From a virus: a DNA stretch of 30,162 bases. Made by a program: the position numbers and the translations under genes. The stretch covers positions 1 through 30,162 of the IMG/VR virus record IMGVR_UViG_3300042474_001562. One strand, 5' to 3'. This document shows positions 5,601-22,922 of this stretch, in pieces (position 1 is the first letter of the stretch; each line of letters starts with the position of its first letter). The notes under the pieces were generated by a model. The model saw nothing but the letters and a program-made list of their open reading frames with translations, made no database searches and had not been told where the DNA came from.

Positions 5601-6227
5601 CTATAATTCCTTTTTTGATAAAATAATATGTCGTTGTTCATAATCTGGAGGTAATGCGTTACCTCTAATTCTAGTTTCTACACCAAAAGAAGAATCTAAA
5701 TGTTTATCAACATTCATTTTATTAGATTTATGTAATTGCGATCCGTCGTGATAATAAACACGATAACCATCATCTAAAGCTTTATGAGCTAATTTTCTCC
5801 ACATATTATGCCCAGTTCTATATTGTGTATCAGAACTTCTTAAAGGTAAATTACTTGATTTAAAATGGTTATAGATAAAATTTGTAGCATATTCTTTCGG
5901 TAATCTATTATCTTTTATTCGTTCAACCATTGTTTGTTCTTGATGTTTAAACGGTAATTTAGCTGTAGGTTTATGCGTTTCAATATTTGAATAATGTATA
6001 ATTTCTTTTGATGAATTATCATTGGTTGAATAATAAATAGTACCATTATTATCAATATGTTTAGTCACATTAACATTTTGATCGCCTGTATCATATTGAT
6101 AAATAGGATAACTTGAATTAGTTTTATACTTCTCAAACCGAAATTCTCTATCATTATTTAATCTCGAATAAGGGTGATTTCCTATATTTCGAGCCATTTC
6201 TTCAATAAAATCCCAATAAGATTTCAT
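5601..6227 (-). CDS. Candidate internal head protein, HVYYHDG family, copy 2
   Basis: A 208-residue protein, clearly paralogous to 8041-8658: both share FKHQEQT.VERI, a LPK.YA block, GHNMW.KL.HKAL, VYYHDGS.LHK and a C-terminal HII.SK..L. The N-terminus MKSYWDFIEEMARNIG resembles the capsid-targeting and cleavage region of T4 internal proteins (cleavage expected after the Glu). I recall this conserved VYYHDG domain in other T4-like phages with no function assigned. GGAG with the same spacing precedes both copies. It lies between a small gene and RNase H. An injected effector acting on the host is possible but not shown; the conserved His/Asp set hints at an enzyme. Confidence 0.6.
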   Translation of the reverse strand: MKSYWDFIEEMARNIGNHPYSRLNNDREFRFEKYKTNSSYPIYQYDTGDQNVNVTKHIDNNGTIYYSTNDNSSKEIIHYSNIETHKPTAKLPFKHQEQTMVERIKDNRLPKEYATNFIYNHFKSSNLPLRSSDTQYRTGHNMWRKLAHKALDDGYRVYYHDGSQLHKSNKMNVDKHLDSSFGVETRIRGNALPPDYEQRHIILSKKEL

Positions 6228-6551: not shown

Positions 6552-6740
6552 TTATCCGCACAAAAAGTTAGATACAGATTTAACTTGTAATACACCTTCC
6601 ATTGTAACTACACCTTTGACAATTCTACCAGATGATAATGTATGAACAATAACTTCATTTTCTACACTTTCATTAACAACGATGCTATTAAATCTAGATT
6701 TCAATTCTTGTAATTCTTGAGCTGTAAATTCTGGGATCAT
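6552..6740 (-). CDS. Small hypothetical protein downstream of gp52
   Basis: A 62-residue protein (MIPEFTAQELQELKSRFNSI, then beta-type VIVHTLSSGRIVKGVVTMEG). The ATG overlaps the gp52 stop (ATGA) and has a GGAGG-like ribosome site within the end of gp52, so translation is coupled. The second half resembles a small beta barrel with VKGVVTMEGVLQVKSV. The family is not recognised. Confidence 0.55.
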   Translation of the reverse strand: MIPEFTAQELQELKSRFNSIVVNESVENEVIVHTLSSGRIVKGVVTMEGVLQVKSVSNFLCG

Positions 6741-8044
6741 AATTCCTCCAATTCTTTTGAATATAATTGTATATTAGTTGTTTTTTCTAATTGTTTTTTC
6801 TTAGTATTTAATTCTTTAACCTGAGTTTCCAATTCTTTTATTCTAGAACCAGTTAAATTCCAAATTTTCATATCTAATAATTTATCAGTAAAGTCATTTT
6901 CATCTAAAATTGAAATTAACTCAAGTTTTGATGCATTTTTAAATAAATTAACATTATCTAAATAAAAATAAATAAATCTAATTCGCTCATTAGAAATTTT
7001 AATATCATCGTTTAAAATATCAATTAACTTAATGATACGTTCAGTATATTTACACAAACGCCAATCAACAAAGTAATCAATAATATCATTAACAGAACTG
7101 AATTTTCTTAACTTACCAGTGGGCAACCAGCACGTTAAATTTTCAGTAACCGTTGTAGTCAATTTTAACCTATCAAGTAGGGTTTCGTCAAGTAAATTAT
7201 TTAAAATTCCTCTTTGATAGTACACATCAATATCAAAACTTTCTTCGGTCGAATTATCCTCATAATCTTTGATGGAATCATTTTCTATTAATTTATTTAA
7301 TTGTTTTTTAATGTCATCAAGATACATACCAACAGGCAATTCAGTAATTTTAATTTGAGTAGCACTAACTCGCTCAATACAACCACTAATTTTATATTTA
7401 TTTTCCTCTACACGTTCAACTGTACCTTTGAATCCGTCAAAATACGGCAGTAAATCATAATATCGAATACCACCTGACATCTTGTTCTTAATGTAGGACG
7501 AGAGCTCTCGAGGATCACGAGAGAGGATCGTAGAAGCAAAACCAGTACCAATACCCTGGGTACTGTTTAAAAGCACTCCTGGCAAGAGTGGCACAAAGAA
7601 ATTTGGCTCAATCTTATATTCGTCTTCATATAAATGCTCTAGGATAATATCATCTTCTTTACGGAAATATTGTCTAAAGTTTTTTGATAATTTTGTAAAA
7701 ATATAACGATGAGCTGCTGGAATTGGGCTTAATCTAGAACCAAACTGACCAATAGGATCCAACCAATTTAAATTATTAGAGCCTACAAAATCCTGCGCAA
7801 GGTTACAAATTACGCCACCAATACCTGCTTCACCGTGGTGATACTGGGTTTCGTATGCCACGGAAGACGCTAATTGAGCGACTTTCATTTCACTTGTTGT
7901 ATTTTTCAATAAACAAGTATATAAAACTTTACGCTGAGTAATTTTCAAACCATCAATTAAATTTGGTAATGAACGCTCATTATCGTAGTTGGCGTACGGA
8001 CGATATTGTTCCTGAAATAATCTATCGATTGTAATTTGTTTCAT
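6737..8044 (-). CDS. 52: DNA topoisomerase II medium subunit (gp52)
   Basis: A 435-residue homologue of T4 gp52 (442 residues), the DNA breakage-reunion subunit of phage type II topoisomerase (GyrA/ParC-like). The N-terminal winged-helix core shows EQYRPYANYDNERSLPNLID and GLKITQRKVLY. The catalytic tyrosine is Y114 in PIPAAHRYIFTKL, preceded by GEAGIGG. The GIGTGFAST motif and a C-terminal coiled coil (KELETQVKELNTKKKQLEK) follow. It acts with the ATPase subunit encoded at 9226-11094. In this window the two subunits are separated by three small genes. It overlaps both neighbours by four bases, so it belongs to a tightly coupled operon. Confidence 0.95.
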   Translation of the reverse strand: MKQITIDRLFQEQYRPYANYDNERSLPNLIDGLKITQRKVLYTCLLKNTTSEMKVAQLASSVAYETQYHHGEAGIGGVICNLAQDFVGSNNLNWLDPIGQFGSRLSPIPAAHRYIFTKLSKNFRQYFRKEDDIILEHLYEDEYKIEPNFFVPLLPGVLLNSTQGIGTGFASTILSRDPRELSSYIKNKMSGGIRYYDLLPYFDGFKGTVERVEENKYKISGCIERVSATQIKITELPVGMYLDDIKKQLNKLIENDSIKDYEDNSTEESFDIDVYYQRGILNNLLDETLLDRLKLTTTVTENLTCWLPTGKLRKFSSVNDIIDYFVDWRLCKYTERIIKLIDILNDDIKISNERIRFIYFYLDNVNLFKNASKLELISILDENDFTDKLLDMKIWNLTGSRIKELETQVKELNTKKKQLEKTTNIQLYSKELEEL

Positions 8045-8658
8045 AGTTTATGTTTAGATATAATTATATGTTTATGTTCGAAATCTAATGGATCAATCAA
8101 ATTACCAGAAGAATCAAAATTAGTTCCTGGGTCAAAATATGAATGTAGATGATTTTCTATATTCTCAGATGTAGTTTTATGTAACTTAGATCCATCGTGA
8201 TAATAAACATGATGACCAGTTTCCAATGCTTTATGAGATAATTTCTTCCACATATTATGACCTGATGGGGTTTGGTAAGTTGAAGAAATTAAAGGTAAAT
8301 TAGAATTATGTAGATGATTTAATGTTTCATGCAATGCATAATTTTTCGGTAATAATTTTGTAGATATTCTTTCAACAGATGTCTGTTCTTGATGTTTGAA
8401 TGGAATAAATTTTGTGGGATTATGTTCATGAAATTCGCTTTTATATAAAGTTTTTCCTGAATCATGATCATTAGTATAATATTTTGTTATATTTTTATTT
8501 TTAAAAACATGTTTTTTAACATTATTATTTAAATTATCCATAATAGGATAATTTCGACTTTTTTTAAAATGAATTTGTTGATCATGTTTTGTGGCTAAAT
8601 CCATTTTAACATCACCAACATTTATAGACATTTCATGAAATAATTTAAAAGATTTCAT
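8041..8658 (-). CDS. Candidate internal head protein, HVYYHDG family, copy 1
   Basis: A 205-residue paralogue of the 5601-6227 protein. It begins MKSFKLFHEMSINVGD, similar to the capsid-targeting peptide of T4 internal head proteins with a likely cleavage after FHE. It then has FIPFKHQEQTSVERI, GHNMWKKLSHKALETG, HHVYYHDGSKLHKTTSENIE and a C-terminal KHIIISKHKL. GGAG precedes the ATG. The protein is rich in His. The pair brackets gp52 and each is preceded by similar small genes, which points to duplication of a whole module. The molecular function is unknown. Confidence 0.6.
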   Translation of the reverse strand: MKSFKLFHEMSINVGDVKMDLATKHDQQIHFKKSRNYPIMDNLNNNVKKHVFKNKNITKYYTNDHDSGKTLYKSEFHEHNPTKFIPFKHQEQTSVERISTKLLPKNYALHETLNHLHNSNLPLISSTYQTPSGHNMWKKLSHKALETGHHVYYHDGSKLHKTTSENIENHLHSYFDPGTNFDSSGNLIDPLDFEHKHIIISKHKL

Positions 8659-13796: not shown

Positions 13797-14498
13797 ATGT
13801 TAAGACCTAAAAAATCAAAAAAATCAACAAATAAAGTTACCTGTTTAAATTTTGAGTTAAGAACAATAACTCCAAAAACAGATAATCAAGAGAAAGTATT
13901 TGATTGCTATAATGAAGGTAAAAATTTAGTTTTATATGGTAGTGCAGGTTCAGGTAAAAGTTTTTTAAGTTTATATCTTGGTCTAAAAGAAATGTTAGAT
14001 GAAGGTACTTTTAACAAAATTATTATCCTACGCTCAGCAGTTGCTTCTAGAGATTTAGGGTTTTTACCTGGATCAGAAAAAGAAAAAATTTCTGTATATG
14101 AAGCTCCCTATAGATCTATAATAAATGATTTATTTGGTAGAGATGATGCTTATGAAATCTTAAAACAAAAAGATATTATTGAATTTGAATCAACATCATT
14201 CCTACGTGGTTTAACATATTCTAATTGTTTAATCTTTGTTGATGAAATGGAAAATATGGCTTTTCATGAATTAAATACAATTTTTACTCGGATTGGTGAA
14301 GGTACTAAAATAATCTTTGCAGGAGATATCAAACAGTGCGATTTAAATGAACGTAAAGAAACAAGTGGTATGAAAGATTTCTTGAACATCATGAAAAAGC
14401 TTGACGAATTTGGTTTAGTAGAGTTTACTATGGATGACTGTGTTAGGTCTTCTATGGTAAAACATTATCTTCAAATAAAAGAACAATTGGGGTTATAA
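13797..14498 (+). CDS. phoH: PhoH-like P-loop ATPase
   Basis: A 233-residue PhoH-family ATPase, common in phages; its cellular role is unsettled (RNA metabolism or phosphate stress). Walker A is GSAGSGKS (48-55) and Walker B is CLIFVDEMEN with D149/E150. IIILRSAVASRDLGFLPGSE and a sensor block IIFAGDIKQCDL are typical. The length is close to the domain alone. AAGGGAA precedes the ATG. No promoter is obvious after the upstream terminator. It is followed on the opposite strand by a homing endonuclease. Confidence 0.92.
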   Translation: MLRPKKSKKSTNKVTCLNFELRTITPKTDNQEKVFDCYNEGKNLVLYGSAGSGKSFLSLYLGLKEMLDEGTFNKIIILRSAVASRDLGFLPGSEKEKISVYEAPYRSIINDLFGRDDAYEILKQKDIIEFESTSFLRGLTYSNCLIFVDEMENMAFHELNTIFTRIGEGTKIIFAGDIKQCDLNERKETSGMKDFLNIMKKLDEFGLVEFTMDDCVRSSMVKHYLQIKEQLGL

Positions 14499-14509
14499 TA
14501 GTTTTAATA

Positions 14510-15325
14510 TTACGGGTGAGATGCTTTAATCCACCCTTTATAATTATTTTGTTCTCCTCTGTTAACTTTTAGCATAGAATTATATTGTAAATTATTTTCT
14601 TTGCAATATAATTTTAAATCTTTTATTTCTACGATTTCGTTAAATGGAGATAAAAAATAAAATGTTTTTAACCTAGTTGATCTACATTTATTTTTGTGTT
14701 CTTGGGTTTGCGGAGGTTTTTTTGCGTTTCTCATTTTTTCTAAAGATTCTTGTGTATGATTTTTTCCAAAAAATGGATTATTTTCTCCAGATGTTGCAAT
14801 AGATATTTTTCGTTTACTGCATTCAGTGTGATGTTTTCCTTTCATGGGGTTTTTATCTCCTTTCATTAGAGTCGATAAAATTTTCCTTCTTTCTTTCGAT
14901 TTATTTGGGTTTTTATCTCCTTTAATGTTATCTGATCGAATTTTTGATAAATTTAATTTTAAATCGGTATATACATAAGAATTTATTTTAAAATTTCTTT
15001 GTGGATTTCTTTTTATATTTGATCCATTAACCATGCACCATAATGCACTATACATTTTTGTTTTATACGAAGATTTAGAAAATTTAATTAATAATAAATG
15101 GCATATATAATGTTCTCTTGCTGTTAAGATAACAATATTCGATTTATCAGTTTCTCCTCCCAGTTTAAATGATTTAGGTAATATATGATGTTTTTCTTTG
15201 TAATTAAAAACTATTTTTTCTTTTCTCGCAATGGCATTATTGATTATATTAATATACCACAAAAAATATTTATTATGTATTGAAATTTGTTTGAGGGTTT
15301 CGATATAAATATCTGTGCTGGACAT
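14510..15325 (-). CDS. HNH homing endonuclease with NUMOD3 motifs
   Basis: A 271-residue intergenic homing endonuclease. The nuclease domain is at about 40-80 (EKHHILPKSFKLGGETDKSN, IVILTAREHYICHLLL), with the His pair and the following N and H of the HNH fold. Three NUMOD3-type DNA-binding motifs follow at about 134-197 (KGDKNPNKSKERRKIL, KGDKNPMKGKHHTECSKRKI, SGENNPFFGKNHTQESLEKM). A C-terminal IENR1/helix-turn-helix-like segment (EIKDLKLYCKENNLQYNSML) ends it. AGGAGA precedes the ATG. It lies opposite to its neighbours, between phoH and the exonuclease, as expected of a free-standing mobile gene. It appears intact. Confidence 0.9.
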   Translation of the reverse strand: MSSTDIYIETLKQISIHNKYFLWYINIINNAIARKEKIVFNYKEKHHILPKSFKLGGETDKSNIVILTAREHYICHLLLIKFSKSSYKTKMYSALWCMVNGSNIKRNPQRNFKINSYVYTDLKLNLSKIRSDNIKGDKNPNKSKERRKILSTLMKGDKNPMKGKHHTECSKRKISIATSGENNPFFGKNHTQESLEKMRNAKKPPQTQEHKNKCRSTRLKTFYFLSPFNEIVEIKDLKLYCKENNLQYNSMLKVNRGEQNNYKGWIKASHP

Positions 15326-18616: not shown

Positions 18617-18643
18617 GAAAGGGGCTGAAACGCCCCTTTTTTT
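18617..18643. terminator. Bidirectional terminator between gp32 and the tail operon
   Basis: AGGGGC (18619-18624) and GCCCCT (18631-18636) form a stem with a 6-base loop, followed by T on the plus strand and flanked by AAA on the other side. It separates the converging gp32 and tape-measure transcripts and lies 10 bases after the gp32 stop. Confidence 0.92.
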
Positions 18644-21203
18644 ATGCCGTTTTTACATTTCCATATGTAAGTGTTAACAACACTGGATCATCATTTCTAA
18701 CTGCCATCATACTACCACCAGTTCCTGCTTGAGGTCTAGGGGCAGACGCTACTTGTTGAGGTGCCTTTTGTGGCACTTGTGATCCCATAACACTTTGAGA
18801 TAATTTAGACATACCGCTCATCATACCTTGCATCATAACAACATTTTCTGATTGCGGTTTTTCTGGAATTACTGTTGATGCTTCCATAGCTGCGAGTTTT
18901 AATTCTTGCTGCGGTCCATTTTTGTCCATTAGAGGAGTTGCTGTAGCATTTTCGGTTTTAGATGCTGCGAGTTTTAATTCTTGCTGCGGTCCATTTTTGT
19001 ACATTAGAGAAGTTGCTGTAGCATTTTCGGTTTTAGATGCTGCTACTTGCAATAAATCAGCTTTTTCTTTACTTGCTCTGCTTAACGTTCCTGCCTTTAC
19101 ATCACCGCTAGAACTTTTAAATAATTTATCATTATTTGCAATTTTATAGTCTTGTATTGCTGATACAATATCCGCATCTGACATTTTTGATGCATCTTTT
19201 CCTTCAAGAGCTTTTTCTATTAATCCAGTACTTCCTCCAAATTGAACTGAAGTACTCCAAACTGCTTCTTGTACAGCTCTGCCTGATTTAGATAAATCTA
19301 TACCAGATTTTTGTAATTTTTCCATTTGCGGATCAAAATGGGACTGTTTTATAAATTCGTGTTGAGCGTCACCAAATTTTTCGTCTTTTGACGCAACTTC
19401 TTTCCATTTTTCATTAAATTCTTTTGAACCAGCAGTTAATCCTTGGAATTCTTTTGCGTATCCAGATGAATTTAAAAATTTATTTAATGTACTTTTTTCT
19501 CCGCCAGAAGAAGCTAATTGATATGTTCCGTATGACGCGCCACCGAAATCTCCTTTTCCAGTTGAAACAGTTCCTGCTCCACTTTTACCAGATTCATATT
19601 TTTGGGATACTGCTCCTACTGCTTTGTCTATAATAGATGGTGTATATTTTCCTTTTTTATATCCACCCATCATCATATCTTGCTCTTCGCCTTTAGACGT
19701 TCCTGGGAATAATGCTTTATGTGCTTTTTCTCCCTCATCTAATGAACCTAATGATTTTCCTCCACCGAATCCCAATAATTCTGTACCTTTATCCCAAACT
19801 GATCCTACTGCTGACGCAGTTTTTTTGTACGCATCAGTCCCTTGTATCCAGTTAACTTTTTCTTCTGCTGCTTTATAAGTATCAGTCCCCTTTGCCCAAG
19901 TCAGACCTTGATCTGCGAGAGATTCGCCTTCACCAGTACCTAAAATAGCTGCAGCAGCTAATCCCCCAAAACCTCCTGCTGCATTAAAAGTTTTACTTGC
20001 TATAGACGGAATAAACCCACCAGAACCACCACCAGAACCACCACCAGAACCACCATGACTACCTTTGTGTCCAGCTCTTGCATTTTTATTTTCTGCTGTA
20101 ATATCAGCATCAATGTCTTTTCTTGCAGCTTCGCGAGACATCGAAGATATACCAACAGACATTCTATCAGCAGTTGAGTTTAATTTCGTTAATGCTTCAT
20201 AAATTTTATTTAAAATTTCAATAGCATTTGAACTGGCTAGACCACCATCCCCTGCAGTATTTCCAGCAAGTTCCCCTGAATCTCCACCTGAAGAATGTTC
20301 GATTATTTCTTCAGGAACAGCAGGTTCATCTGGTACTAATTCTCCCTGATGTTCTCCTGTTTGATGTTGGGTTGTATCTTGATGTTCTTTATCTTTTTTG
20401 CCGAATAACGATCCAACTAAATTGGAACCTAATCTTCCTATAGCTCCTGTAGCATTACCCAGAAATTCTCCACCTTTTTTAACTAAATTAGAACCAACTT
20501 CTACTGCCTTTTTACCACCTTCTTTTAATTTACTTGTAACATTACCAGCAAATTCTTTTGATGATTCCAATGCACTAGAAGCTTTTTCTTTAATTGCTTC
20601 AATACCCTTTTCAATTTTGGGTTTAAATATTTCTTTGGCATCAGAAACTTTACCTGCAACATTTTCAGCTAATTCGCTGCCTTTTGCTTTAATGGTTTCC
20701 ATACCAGATTTAAAAGTGTTAGTTGCTTTATCTGCTAATCCTTCAGTTTTTGATAATATTTTTTCTTGAATACCACCTTTAGCAGCTTTTAAGGTATCAA
20801 ACATTCCTGTAGCGATACCACCAGCTTTATCTGCTACTTTACCTGCAACTTTACCTATGGTTTCTGCTTTTGGTAAAATTTTTGATGCAGTTGATATTGC
20901 AGTTTTTCCTGCAGCAGTGGCAACTCTAGCACCAGCGGCAATTTCTCCTGTTCCTATCATTAACGAACCTGCTGTTCCTCCAGCGAATCCTGTGCTGTAT
21001 GCAACAGGATTTCGTTGTAGAGCCTCTTCGTTTGCGTTTTCTTCAGATTTTAATTCATCAGCATATTTCGTTCCTTTGACTACGCTTTTGACACCAGCAG
21101 AGATATTTTCCCCGAACCCCATAGTTGCACCTTGCCAAGCACCTCGAGCGGTATCTCCAGCAGTTTGCACCCAGTTATTTTCTTTATCTGAATTATTTGC
21201 CAT
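18642..21203 (-). CDS. Tape-measure-like tail protein with muramidase-type domain
   Basis: An 853-residue protein in the position of T4 gp29 (590 residues, tail length). Residues 1-280 are Ala/Gly/Lys-rich helices with repeated KASEL-like heptads. A low-complexity hinge follows at about 380-397 (GGSGGGSGGGSGG). Residues 530-720 form a lysozyme-like domain of the VgrG3 C-terminal type: KYESGKSGAGTVSTGKGDFG with E537, GGASYGTYQLAS, and FGDAQHEFIKQSHFDPQ. Two 25-residue repeats lie at about 724-773, and a flexible tail ends the chain. It would sit inside the tail tube and open the cell wall during DNA entry. The gp29 identity is inferred from position and composition; the muramidase domain is better supported. 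Confidence 0.75.
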   Translation of the reverse strand: MANNSDKENNWVQTAGDTARGAWQGATMGFGENISAGVKSVVKGTKYADELKSEENANEEALQRNPVAYSTGFAGGTAGSLMIGTGEIAAGARVATAAGKTAISTASKILPKAETIGKVAGKVADKAGGIATGMFDTLKAAKGGIQEKILSKTEGLADKATNTFKSGMETIKAKGSELAENVAGKVSDAKEIFKPKIEKGIEAIKEKASSALESSKEFAGNVTSKLKEGGKKAVEVGSNLVKKGGEFLGNATGAIGRLGSNLVGSLFGKKDKEHQDTTQHQTGEHQGELVPDEPAVPEEIIEHSSGGDSGELAGNTAGDGGLASSNAIEILNKIYEALTKLNSTADRMSVGISSMSREAARKDIDADITAENKNARAGHKGSHGGSGGGSGGGSGGFIPSIASKTFNAAGGFGGLAAAAILGTGEGESLADQGLTWAKGTDTYKAAEEKVNWIQGTDAYKKTASAVGSVWDKGTELLGFGGGKSLGSLDEGEKAHKALFPGTSKGEEQDMMMGGYKKGKYTPSIIDKAVGAVSQKYESGKSGAGTVSTGKGDFGGASYGTYQLASSGGEKSTLNKFLNSSGYAKEFQGLTAGSKEFNEKWKEVASKDEKFGDAQHEFIKQSHFDPQMEKLQKSGIDLSKSGRAVQEAVWSTSVQFGGSTGLIEKALEGKDASKMSDADIVSAIQDYKIANNDKLFKSSSGDVKAGTLSRASKEKADLLQVAASKTENATATSLMYKNGPQQELKLAASKTENATATPLMDKNGPQQELKLAAMEASTVIPEKPQSENVVMMQGMMSGMSKLSQSVMGSQVPQKAPQQVASAPRPQAGTGGSMMAVRNDDPVLLTLTYGNVKTA
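18889..19038 (-). repeat. Two tandem 75-bp in-frame repeats in the tape-measure gene
   Basis: Units 18889-18963 and 18964-19038 are nearly identical and encode 25 residues each (KTENATATxLMxKNGPQQEL). They lie after the muramidase domain. The high nucleotide identity indicates a recent duplication by slippage or unequal recombination. Confidence 0.9.
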
Positions 21204-21205
21204 TT

Positions 21206-21406
21206 TTAATGTTGATTCCTAATAGCTTCTTGCTGTTTACGTTTTTCTTCTTTTTCTCTAATATGTTGAACCAATAAACCTATATAAATTTCCCTTTCCC
21301 AAGGGATCATCGCTTCCAGTTCAGTTAAACTATAACCATGATGTTGCATCATAGCAAAATTAGTTTTATAATAAACTGAAAGTTTATCATTACCAAGAAT
21401 TAAGTA
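21206..21406 (-). CDS. gp51-position protein, probably read by -1 frameshift from gp26
   Basis: An open frame of 66 codons lies in the -1 frame relative to gp26 and runs from the slippery site to a TAA at 21206. Its core, MMQHHGYSLTELEAMIPWER then EIYIGLLVQHIREKEEKRKQ, matches a small conserved protein found after gp26 in T4-like phages, where gp51 (baseplate hub assembly) is usually annotated. It also recalls the C-terminal extension of tail assembly chaperones. The only internal ATGs (21352, 21349) have no ribosome site and would give 47-48 residues. Reading through the frameshift would give a 304-residue gp26 fusion. Confidence 0.7.
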   Translation of the reverse strand, partial: YLILGNDKLSVYYKTNFAMMQHHGYSLTELEAMIPWEREIYIGLLVQHIREKEEKRKQQEAIRNQH

Positions 21407-22119
21407 AAAAAATCGAAAATATCCTCAACTAAAATGTTGTGATTCATACCACATTTATTACAAGTTATATTTAATTTTTTTATAATTTTTGGTTCGTTTA
21501 AGAAGAATTGTTCTATTTTTTCGTACTTTTCTGTTGGTAAATTACCAATCCACTCAACAATCTTTTGTTGAGGAATATCTTTAGCATTATATGAAGAATT
21601 TTCATCATAGATAAAATCTACATTATTTGCAATAATCTCAAACAATTCTTTTGGTGTTGGTAATGTATCCTCTAAACCGTCAAGTTCAAATCTTTGGTGT
21701 TTTAATTTAATGCCAACATTTTCAGTAATTTCAATTATTGGAGAAACACCATTATCTAAAATTTCTAAATCGGTTAATAAATTTAATGTGTGATCCATAG
21801 TGTTGCCACATATAGTATCTTCAATTTTATTTTCGCATCTATATTTTAAATTTACAAGTTCAGATTCAGATCTGGCTCTAAGTTGATAAAATAAATATTC
21901 AACATCAGTAATTGGTAATTCTTCTTGTATATTAATATCTGTTATAATACAATTATTAATAATTTGTAATATTGCATTAATTACTGAATTTTTTTCTCCA
22001 GATTCTTTAGCCATTGTTAAAATTTTCTGTTCTTTAACTAAATATGGTCTAAATTGTATATTTTTTTTAGAAATTGGTAATTCAACAGAAAATGTTGGCA
22101 CATCAATTGTCGGTAGCAT
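21400..22119 (-). CDS. 26: Baseplate hub/assembly protein (gp26)
   Basis: A 239-residue member of the T4 baseplate gp26 family (T4 gp26 is 208 residues), needed for hub assembly. DVPTFSVELPISKKNIQFRP, then YLVKEQKILTMA, is the family N-terminus. Four Cys, C95/C104 (RCENKIEDTICG) and C220/C223 (TCNKCG), probably bind zinc. The last codons contain the T TTT TTT frameshift site, so a shorter gp26 and a longer gp26-gp51 form are expected. The gene follows gp54 by two bases within the leftward tail operon. Confidence 0.85.
   Translation of the reverse strand: MLPTIDVPTFSVELPISKKNIQFRPYLVKEQKILTMAKESGEKNSVINAILQIINNCIITDINIQEELPITDVEYLFYQLRARSESELVNLKYRCENKIEDTICGNTMDHTLNLLTDLEILDNGVSPIIEITENVGIKLKHQRFELDGLEDTLPTPKELFEIIANNVDFIYDENSSYNAKDIPQQKIVEWIGNLPTEKYEKIEQFFLNEPKIIKKLNITCNKCGMNHNILVEDIFDFFT
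21406..21412 (-). other. Programmed -1 frameshift site T TTT TTT
   Basis: In the gp26 frame the end reads GAT TTT TTT ACT TAA, a perfect X XXY YYZ heptamer two codons before the stop. GAGGA, a Shine-Dalgarno-like stimulator, ends nine bases upstream (21426-21422), close to the spacing used by dnaX. A weak 6-bp hairpin (ATAAAC/GTTTAT, 21371-21387) follows 18 bases downstream. The -1 frame is open for 66 codons. Confidence 0.75.
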
Positions 22120-22121
22120 AC

Positions 22122-22922
22122 TTATAATCCTATTCTTGTTAATCCTGATGATAATGTAAAATTAGACAACCCCAAACCTGGTAGGGTTGATCCTATTGCT
22201 AAAGGGTTTCCACTTTCTATGGCACCATTTATGGTATTTATAGTGGAGGCAGTCTTAATAGCTGTCCCTAATAATTCACCTAATGGACCTCTTGTATAGG
22301 CGCCATTACTTTCCACATGTTTAAAATCATATGTGTATTCTGTATAAGCGAATGCAACATTTAATGATTGGGCTTCGTTTTGAGCTGCCCATGAAAGGGG
22401 AATTTGATTTATTGAAATTGGAAATGCATCAATTAATGTTACTTCAACTAACGGCATTCCTGTTATCGCATAATGTGTTATTTTTATTCTTGATGCGTAT
22501 TCACTTTTATATCTAACATTATAAGTTGTTTCTATGCCAGAATTTTTTATAGTTTCTTCTCTTCCTGTGATATATGCTATCCAATTTTGAAAAAATTTTC
22601 TGGTTTTTTCATATTGTGAACCTCTGGTATAAAATGATAAATCTATATCCTTATATCCAGTCATAACTGAATGTTGTTCAGTTACCCCATATATTTTTTG
22701 GTGTACTGTAGCTGTTGATTCACCTGGAAGTTCTGCTGAATGACAAACATATCTTAAGGTATCATTATCAGCAAATTTATTAAAGTAGAACTCAACATCA
22801 AAGTATGCTGTTCTACCTATATCGTATGCTAATAACTCGCTCTTTGCTTCGCGATATTTTGAGTCATCAGTTTTCGGACCATTTCCACTCATTAACTCTT
22901 TTACTGTATCTAAAAATGACAT
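22122..22922 (-). CDS. 54: Baseplate tail tube initiator (gp54)
   Basis: A 266-residue homologue of T4 gp54 (320 residues), which sits on the baseplate hub and starts tail tube polymerisation; it shares the tube fold with gp19. The central part (YVCHSAELPGESTATVHQKI, SVMTGYKDIDLSFYTRGSQY) is typical of tube-fold proteins. The C-terminal part (VEVTLIDAFPISINQIPLSW then NVAFAYTEYTYDF) matches the gp54 end that contacts the tube. It ends in a Gly/Ser-rich helical tail. In T4, gp54 is next to gp48; here they are on opposite strands about 1.1 kb apart. Confidence 0.8.
   Translation of the reverse strand: MSFLDTVKELMSGNGPKTDDSKYREAKSELLAYDIGRTAYFDVEFYFNKFADNDTLRYVCHSAELPGESTATVHQKIYGVTEQHSVMTGYKDIDLSFYTRGSQYEKTRKFFQNWIAYITGREETIKNSGIETTYNVRYKSEYASRIKITHYAITGMPLVEVTLIDAFPISINQIPLSWAAQNEAQSLNVAFAYTEYTYDFKHVESNGAYTRGPLGELLGTAIKTASTINTINGAIESGNPLAIGSTLPGLGLSNFTLSSGLTRIGL

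Follow-up and report, generated by a model that had tools for sequence, protein, structure and literature searches.

The virus record examined here (IMG/VR record IMGVR_UViG_3300042474_001562) is a stretch of 30,162 nucleotides, hereafter called the window. Its gp26 gene ends on a run of seven T's, from which the -1 frame stays open and encodes a gp51-like sequence. This locus raises the question of whether a fraction of the ribosomes reads the two frames as one protein, and of what the short and the long products would then do. We consider it very probable that gp26 and gp51 represent a tail assembly chaperone pair (TAC-N and TAC-NC, respectively) made via -1 ribosomal frameshifting, with the slippage event, its frequency and the interaction partners being inferred. 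This reading is the best explanation because of the anatomy of the junction, its conservation, selection at the nucleotide level, the gene order and the equivalence to T4 gp26 and gp51.

Anatomy of the gp26-gp51 junction

The gp26 homologue, the putative short chaperone form (TAC-N), is an ORF of 239 residues on the minus strand (22119..21400). It matches Pfam PF12322 (T4_baseplate, 6e-47) and PHROG 150 (6.1e-50), and its AF2 model has a pLDDT of 91.5. The 3' end of the gene reads GAT TTT TTT ACT TAA, in which the slippery heptamer T TTT TTT (21412..21406, minus) is in the X XXY YYZ phase, i.e. GA-T TTT TTT-ACT-TAA. The gp26 stop codon TAA (21402..21400, minus) is found one sense codon past the slip site, and a GAGGA motif that could act as a Shine-Dalgarno (SD)-like stimulator is located at 21426..21422 (minus), 9 nt before the heptamer.

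The -1 frame (21406..21206, minus) comprises 66 codons (21406..21209) followed by TAA (21208..21206), and the predicted gp26-gp51 fusion is 304 residues long. The original prediction had described the in-phase heptamer at the end of gp26, the GAGGA ending nine bases upstream, the 66 open codons from the slip onward and the length of the fusion, all of which are present in the sequence exactly as described. The probability of an open run of 66 codons is ~0.002 at the local composition (28% GC), and thus openness alone is already unlikely to arise by chance. Residues 2-62 of the 66 encoded in the -1 frame match PHROG 634 (3.6e-27), which corresponds to gp51, 'baseplate hub assembly catalyst'. 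This gp51-like C-terminal domain (TAC-C) aligns right from the slip with its counterparts in the 37 other sequence clusters described below, and its AF2 model is all-helical, with a pLDDT of 80.6. On PHROG 150, which has 282 positions, gp26 covers positions 7-233 and the -1 frame covers the C-terminal positions 235-278, indicating that the two jointly rebuild a family with some in-frame fused members. Judging from the sequence, the fusion would be produced as a frameshift product.

Conservation of the slip site among relatives

A scan of viral contigs with peptide patterns that included gp51 residues yielded 80 related loci. Adding nine named phages and the window gives a set of 90 loci, which fall into 38 clusters at 80% nucleotide identity. 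Because the contig loci were found via gp51 residues, part of the gp51 conservation among them stems from this selection, and the named phages are less affected. All 80 contig loci place gp51 in the -1 frame relative to gp26, following T TTT TTY or T TTT TTA. The original prediction had proposed to look for a conserved slippery site and an overlapping -1 frame across T4-like phages, and the alignment revealed T TTT TTN with gp51 in the -1 frame in 90 of the 90 loci that harbour gp26-gp51 in this arrangement (38 clusters). The -1 frame is alignable across clusters from the slip onward. Exactly one sense codon separates the heptamer from the gp26 stop in 89 of the 90 loci, and none does so in Methylophilales phage Melnitz-3. 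Elsewhere in these ORFs, in-frame T TTT TTN occurs at 12 of 9097 codon positions.

The codon ahead of the two codons of the heptamer always ends in T, with N, S, D, G, R or A as the encoded amino acid (log10P about -9.9). The first Phe is encoded by TTT in 37 of the 38 clusters (log10P about -7.5), the exception being Melnitz-3, which has the same heptamer moved by one codon; the share of TTC among the Phe codons of these genes is 37%. The fixed T-ending codon and the use of TTT for the first Phe point to selection on the nucleotides and not merely to a conserved Phe-Phe pair. At the level of sequence comparison, this conservation marks the junction as functional.

A different junction was observed in four Ackermannviridae phages (L088:2050-2130, L178:1150-1230, L179:1150-1230 and L180:1150-1230), in which the gp51 frame is also -1 relative to gp26. 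The junction reads GAG/GAA ATT TTC ATT TAA, without T TTT TTN; it is conserved in all four, with one codon from TTC to the stop, which suggests a candidate non-canonical slip site. Vibrio phage D528 (L181:1085-1143) harbours a similar non-canonical junction, TCA CTT TTC AAG TAA, with an open, gp51-like -1 frame.

Stimulators and alternative readings of the overlap

We analysed the surroundings of the slip site in the 38 clusters. The predicted pairing with the 16S anti-Shine-Dalgarno sequence peaks sharply for windows whose first base is 13-18 nt upstream of the heptamer, with a mean of about -6 kcal/mol at the peak versus a background of -0.1. The residues encoded at this peak are often Glu-Gly, and the signal could therefore reflect a protein constraint. 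Resampling of synonymous codons gave a null value of -4.65 (sd 0.25) versus the observed -6.10, which was reached in 0 of 1000 trials, indicating that the signal is partly driven by the amino acids and partly by selection on the SD itself. Glu is encoded by GAG in 16 of 25 cases at the SD site versus 23% elsewhere. With a slip site that is invariant over 38 divergent clusters and an upstream SD under selection at the nucleotide level, the -1 frameshift reading of the original prediction is well founded. Downstream of the slip, the RNA displays slight extra stability in some windows, but our search for a downstream stimulator brought out neither a consensus fold nor any consistent feature shortly after the slip, and we therefore do not claim a structural stimulator. 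A near-invariant peptide, MMQHH, is encoded at 21338-21352 (minus) of the window and in related loci, about 60-75 nt past the slip. In the window its codons, ATG ATG CAA CAT CAT, could form a small hairpin, too distant from the slip for an ordinary stimulator.

Could gp51 instead be a separate protein that starts from an ATG of its own (about 21352 or 21349), or is made by ribosomes that reinitiate once they have terminated gp26, with no fusion being made? Many records annotate gp51 as a small gene of its own, some relatives (e.g. L032, L089 and L087) have a start codon with an SD, and codons 20-21 of the window frame, with the count starting at the heptamer, are ATG ATG (about 21352..21347). 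However, these ATG codons have no SD and lie inside the conserved domain, whose homology starts 18 residues earlier, at the slip. The original claim that the frame has 'no usable start' was thus a fair reading, even though it passed over ATG codons that do exist. In 14 of the 38 clusters, no start codon is present until past codon 15. On these grounds, we rejected a separate gp51 start. The invariant in-phase heptamer and the T4-type in-frame fusions would also be left unexplained, and we hold separate synthesis of gp51 to be very improbable.

Slippage of RNA polymerase on T runs such as that of the window is a known phenomenon, and a frame shifted in this manner in a fraction of the mRNAs would be read by unshifted ribosomes. 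Transcriptional slippage is covered by a review (PMC5009743). The seven T's of the window would suit such a mechanism, but in most clusters (24 of 38) the T run at the slip site is only six long and is followed by C. Moreover, the preserved reading phase and the selected SD at a ribosomal distance fit slipping by the ribosome and would not be needed by the polymerase, making this explanation very unlikely. Lastly, a single contig could carry an indel, but the same register recurs in 90 records, the reference phages KVP40, P-SSM2 and Cr30 among them. Sequencing error is thereby excluded, and the probability is negligible that the overlap arose by chance or from the decay of an in-frame fusion.

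Ribosomal frameshifting would then proceed as follows. Most ribosomes would stop at the gp26 TAA, generating the short form (TAC-N). Pairing of the SD-like GAGGA, ~9 nt upstream, with the 16S rRNA would hold the ribosome with TTT TTT in its P and A sites, and a minority of ribosomes would slip back by one base on T TTT TTT, bypass the stop one codon further and enter the gp51 frame, yielding the 304-residue long form (TAC-NC). A probable role of the short form is to coat the tape measure protein, the product of the next gene downstream, and that of the gp51 domain is to recruit tail tube subunits, the product of the adjacent upstream gene.

Gene context, the two-gene version and known systems

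In the window, the gp26-gp51 pair directly follows the tail tube protein gene (22122..22922, minus; PF23849 Phage_TTP_2, 1.3e-8; PHROG 45 tail tube, 1.3e-22) and precedes a gene for an 853-residue protein (18642..21203, minus), and this order is shared by relatives. The upstream genes of the relatives strongly match tail tube PHROGs, and two of the downstream proteins, encoded at the same place, match tape-measure PHROGs. The 853-residue protein, whose C-terminal part matches PF21277 (VgrG3-like C-terminal, 3.9e-68), is a probable tape measure protein, based on its position, its size and its relatives. The location of the pair between tube and tape-measure-like genes and the in-frame fusion found in T4 gp51 (see below) support the equivalence to the lambda G/GT pair put forward in the original prediction.

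Tail assembly chaperones commonly lack detectable sequence homology to one another. A Foldseek search of the PDB with the AF2 model of gp26 gave no significant matches; the HK97 tail assembly chaperone 2ob9 was among the highest-probability matches listed, with weak values of 0.51 (E 0.88) and 0.23. The same search with the model of the gp51 domain gave no match. The profile comparison of the gp51 frame with tail chaperones, which the original prediction had put forward as a check, did not bring out a relationship: by hhalign, neither the gp26 nor the gp51 domain scored above shuffled sequences against P2 E and E' or lambda G and T, a weak test with single-sequence targets. The P2 homologues among the viral contigs were too alike for a useful profile.

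The organization of the locus is similar to that of known systems. Phage P2 E / E+E' also has a -1 slip, at T TTT TTG, close to where the short ORF ends, with the tape measure gene directly downstream, but P2 E is much smaller (91 residues), the shift is further from the stop, and no sequence homology is detectable. Phage lambda G/GT shares the order tail tube, short/long chaperone and tape measure and a -1 frameshift shortly before the short ORF ends; its slip site, G GGA AAG, is different, and sequence homology is likewise not detectable. In Escherichia coli dnaX, an SD-like stimulator is present about 10 nt upstream of the -1 slip heptamer A AAA AAG, in addition to a downstream hairpin. The upstream stimulator at a similar distance is what the two systems have in common, whereas dnaX is an unrelated gene and has the hairpin.

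Phage T4 harbours a two-gene version of this system. T4 gp51 (249 residues) is an in-frame fusion of the N- and C-terminal parts, aligning as a single protein with the gp26 and -1 frames of the window, and T4 gp26 (208 residues) terminates at the junction in the alignment with the window. Both T4 proteins match PF12322, and on PHROG 150 gp26 stops at position 235 and gp51 reaches position 280. Similarity between gp26 and gp51 is detectable in single comparisons, with E values of about 1e-5 for the T4 pair and about 1e-6 for T4/JS10 cross pairs. In T4, JS10 and Thanatos-1, the two genes lie side by side and are divergently oriented. T4 gp26 and gp51 are thus homologous to the short and the long form, respectively, with the difference that T4 encodes them in two paralogous genes that are transcribed divergently and need no frameshift.

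We counted PF12322 copies in whole genomes and found two copies in 4 of 4 phages with an in-frame long form (T4, JS10, Thanatos-1 and SRILMA) and one copy in 16 of 16 out-of-frame phages. The contig of the window has one copy, with T TTT TTT; as it is a fragment of a genome, another copy could lie outside it. The heptamer is missing from the short paralogues of T4, JS10, Thanatos and SRILMA; the gp26 proteins of the first three have no need to slip. This split in copy number and the loss of the heptamer indicate that both the short and the long forms are kept, either by frameshifting within one gene or by means of two genes. In Vibrio phage VB_VaC_SRILMA (L185:20-1362), the PF12322 paralogues are in tandem on one strand, the short one of 216 residues and the in-frame long one of 229 residues. 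Unlike the divergent T4 pair, this tandem pair possibly represents an independent switch from frameshifting to duplication. As a tentative scenario, to which we give somewhat less than even chances, a frameshifted gp26-gp51 would be ancestral across T4-like and related myophages, with at least two independent conversions to duplicated genes (divergent in T4, JS10 and Thanatos, tandem in SRILMA), and would have relaxed in Ackermannviridae to GAR ATT TTC, with the stop still one codon later.

The abstract of Vladimirov, Gautam and Davidson reportedly names T4 genes 26 and 51 and describes frameshifting as kept in several T4-like groups. A 2016 review considered the G-T frameshift to be conserved among long-tailed phages except T4 (PMC5009743). 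The tail assembly chaperone genes of T4-like phages were identified by Vladimirov, Gautam and Davidson in 2022 (Virology 566:9-15), as cited in PMC10274946 and PMC12846349. According to these citing papers, some T4-like phages dispense with frameshifting and have a short gene alongside a longer fusion gene (PMC10274946), and polyT slip signals are found in TAC-N genes of T4-like phages (PMC12846349). The doubt voiced in the original prediction that a gp26 frameshift had been described is thus contradicted, since the chaperone genes, the frameshifting groups and the two-gene version were all reported in 2022, as relayed in these two papers. The window fits the frameshifting type, and nothing essential differs from the 2022 report as they relay it; it is a good new example and not a discovery. 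Details that may be new are the selection on the SD stimulator at the synonymous level, the clean split in copy number and the unusual, conserved Ackermannviridae site.

Hundreds of phage records label gp26 as 'baseplate hub' and gp51 as 'hub assembly catalyst', and these proteins very probably correspond to the short and long chaperone forms. Where marine T4-like phages have been annotated with a small gp51 gene, it should be merged with gp26 as the product of a frameshift. These phages offer a natural comparison of two ways to fix the ratio of a short to a long protein, ribosomal slipping or gene duplication.

Other features of the window were also noted. Two orphan proteins, encoded at 5601-6227 and 8041-8658 (both minus), are related (45% identity over 213 columns, E 2e-51) and have no Pfam match; this duplicated gene flanks a topoisomerase subunit gene (6737-8044). 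The ORF at 14510-15325 (minus), which adjoins the phoH gene (13797-14498), contains NUMOD3 motifs and probably codes for a homing-type endonuclease.
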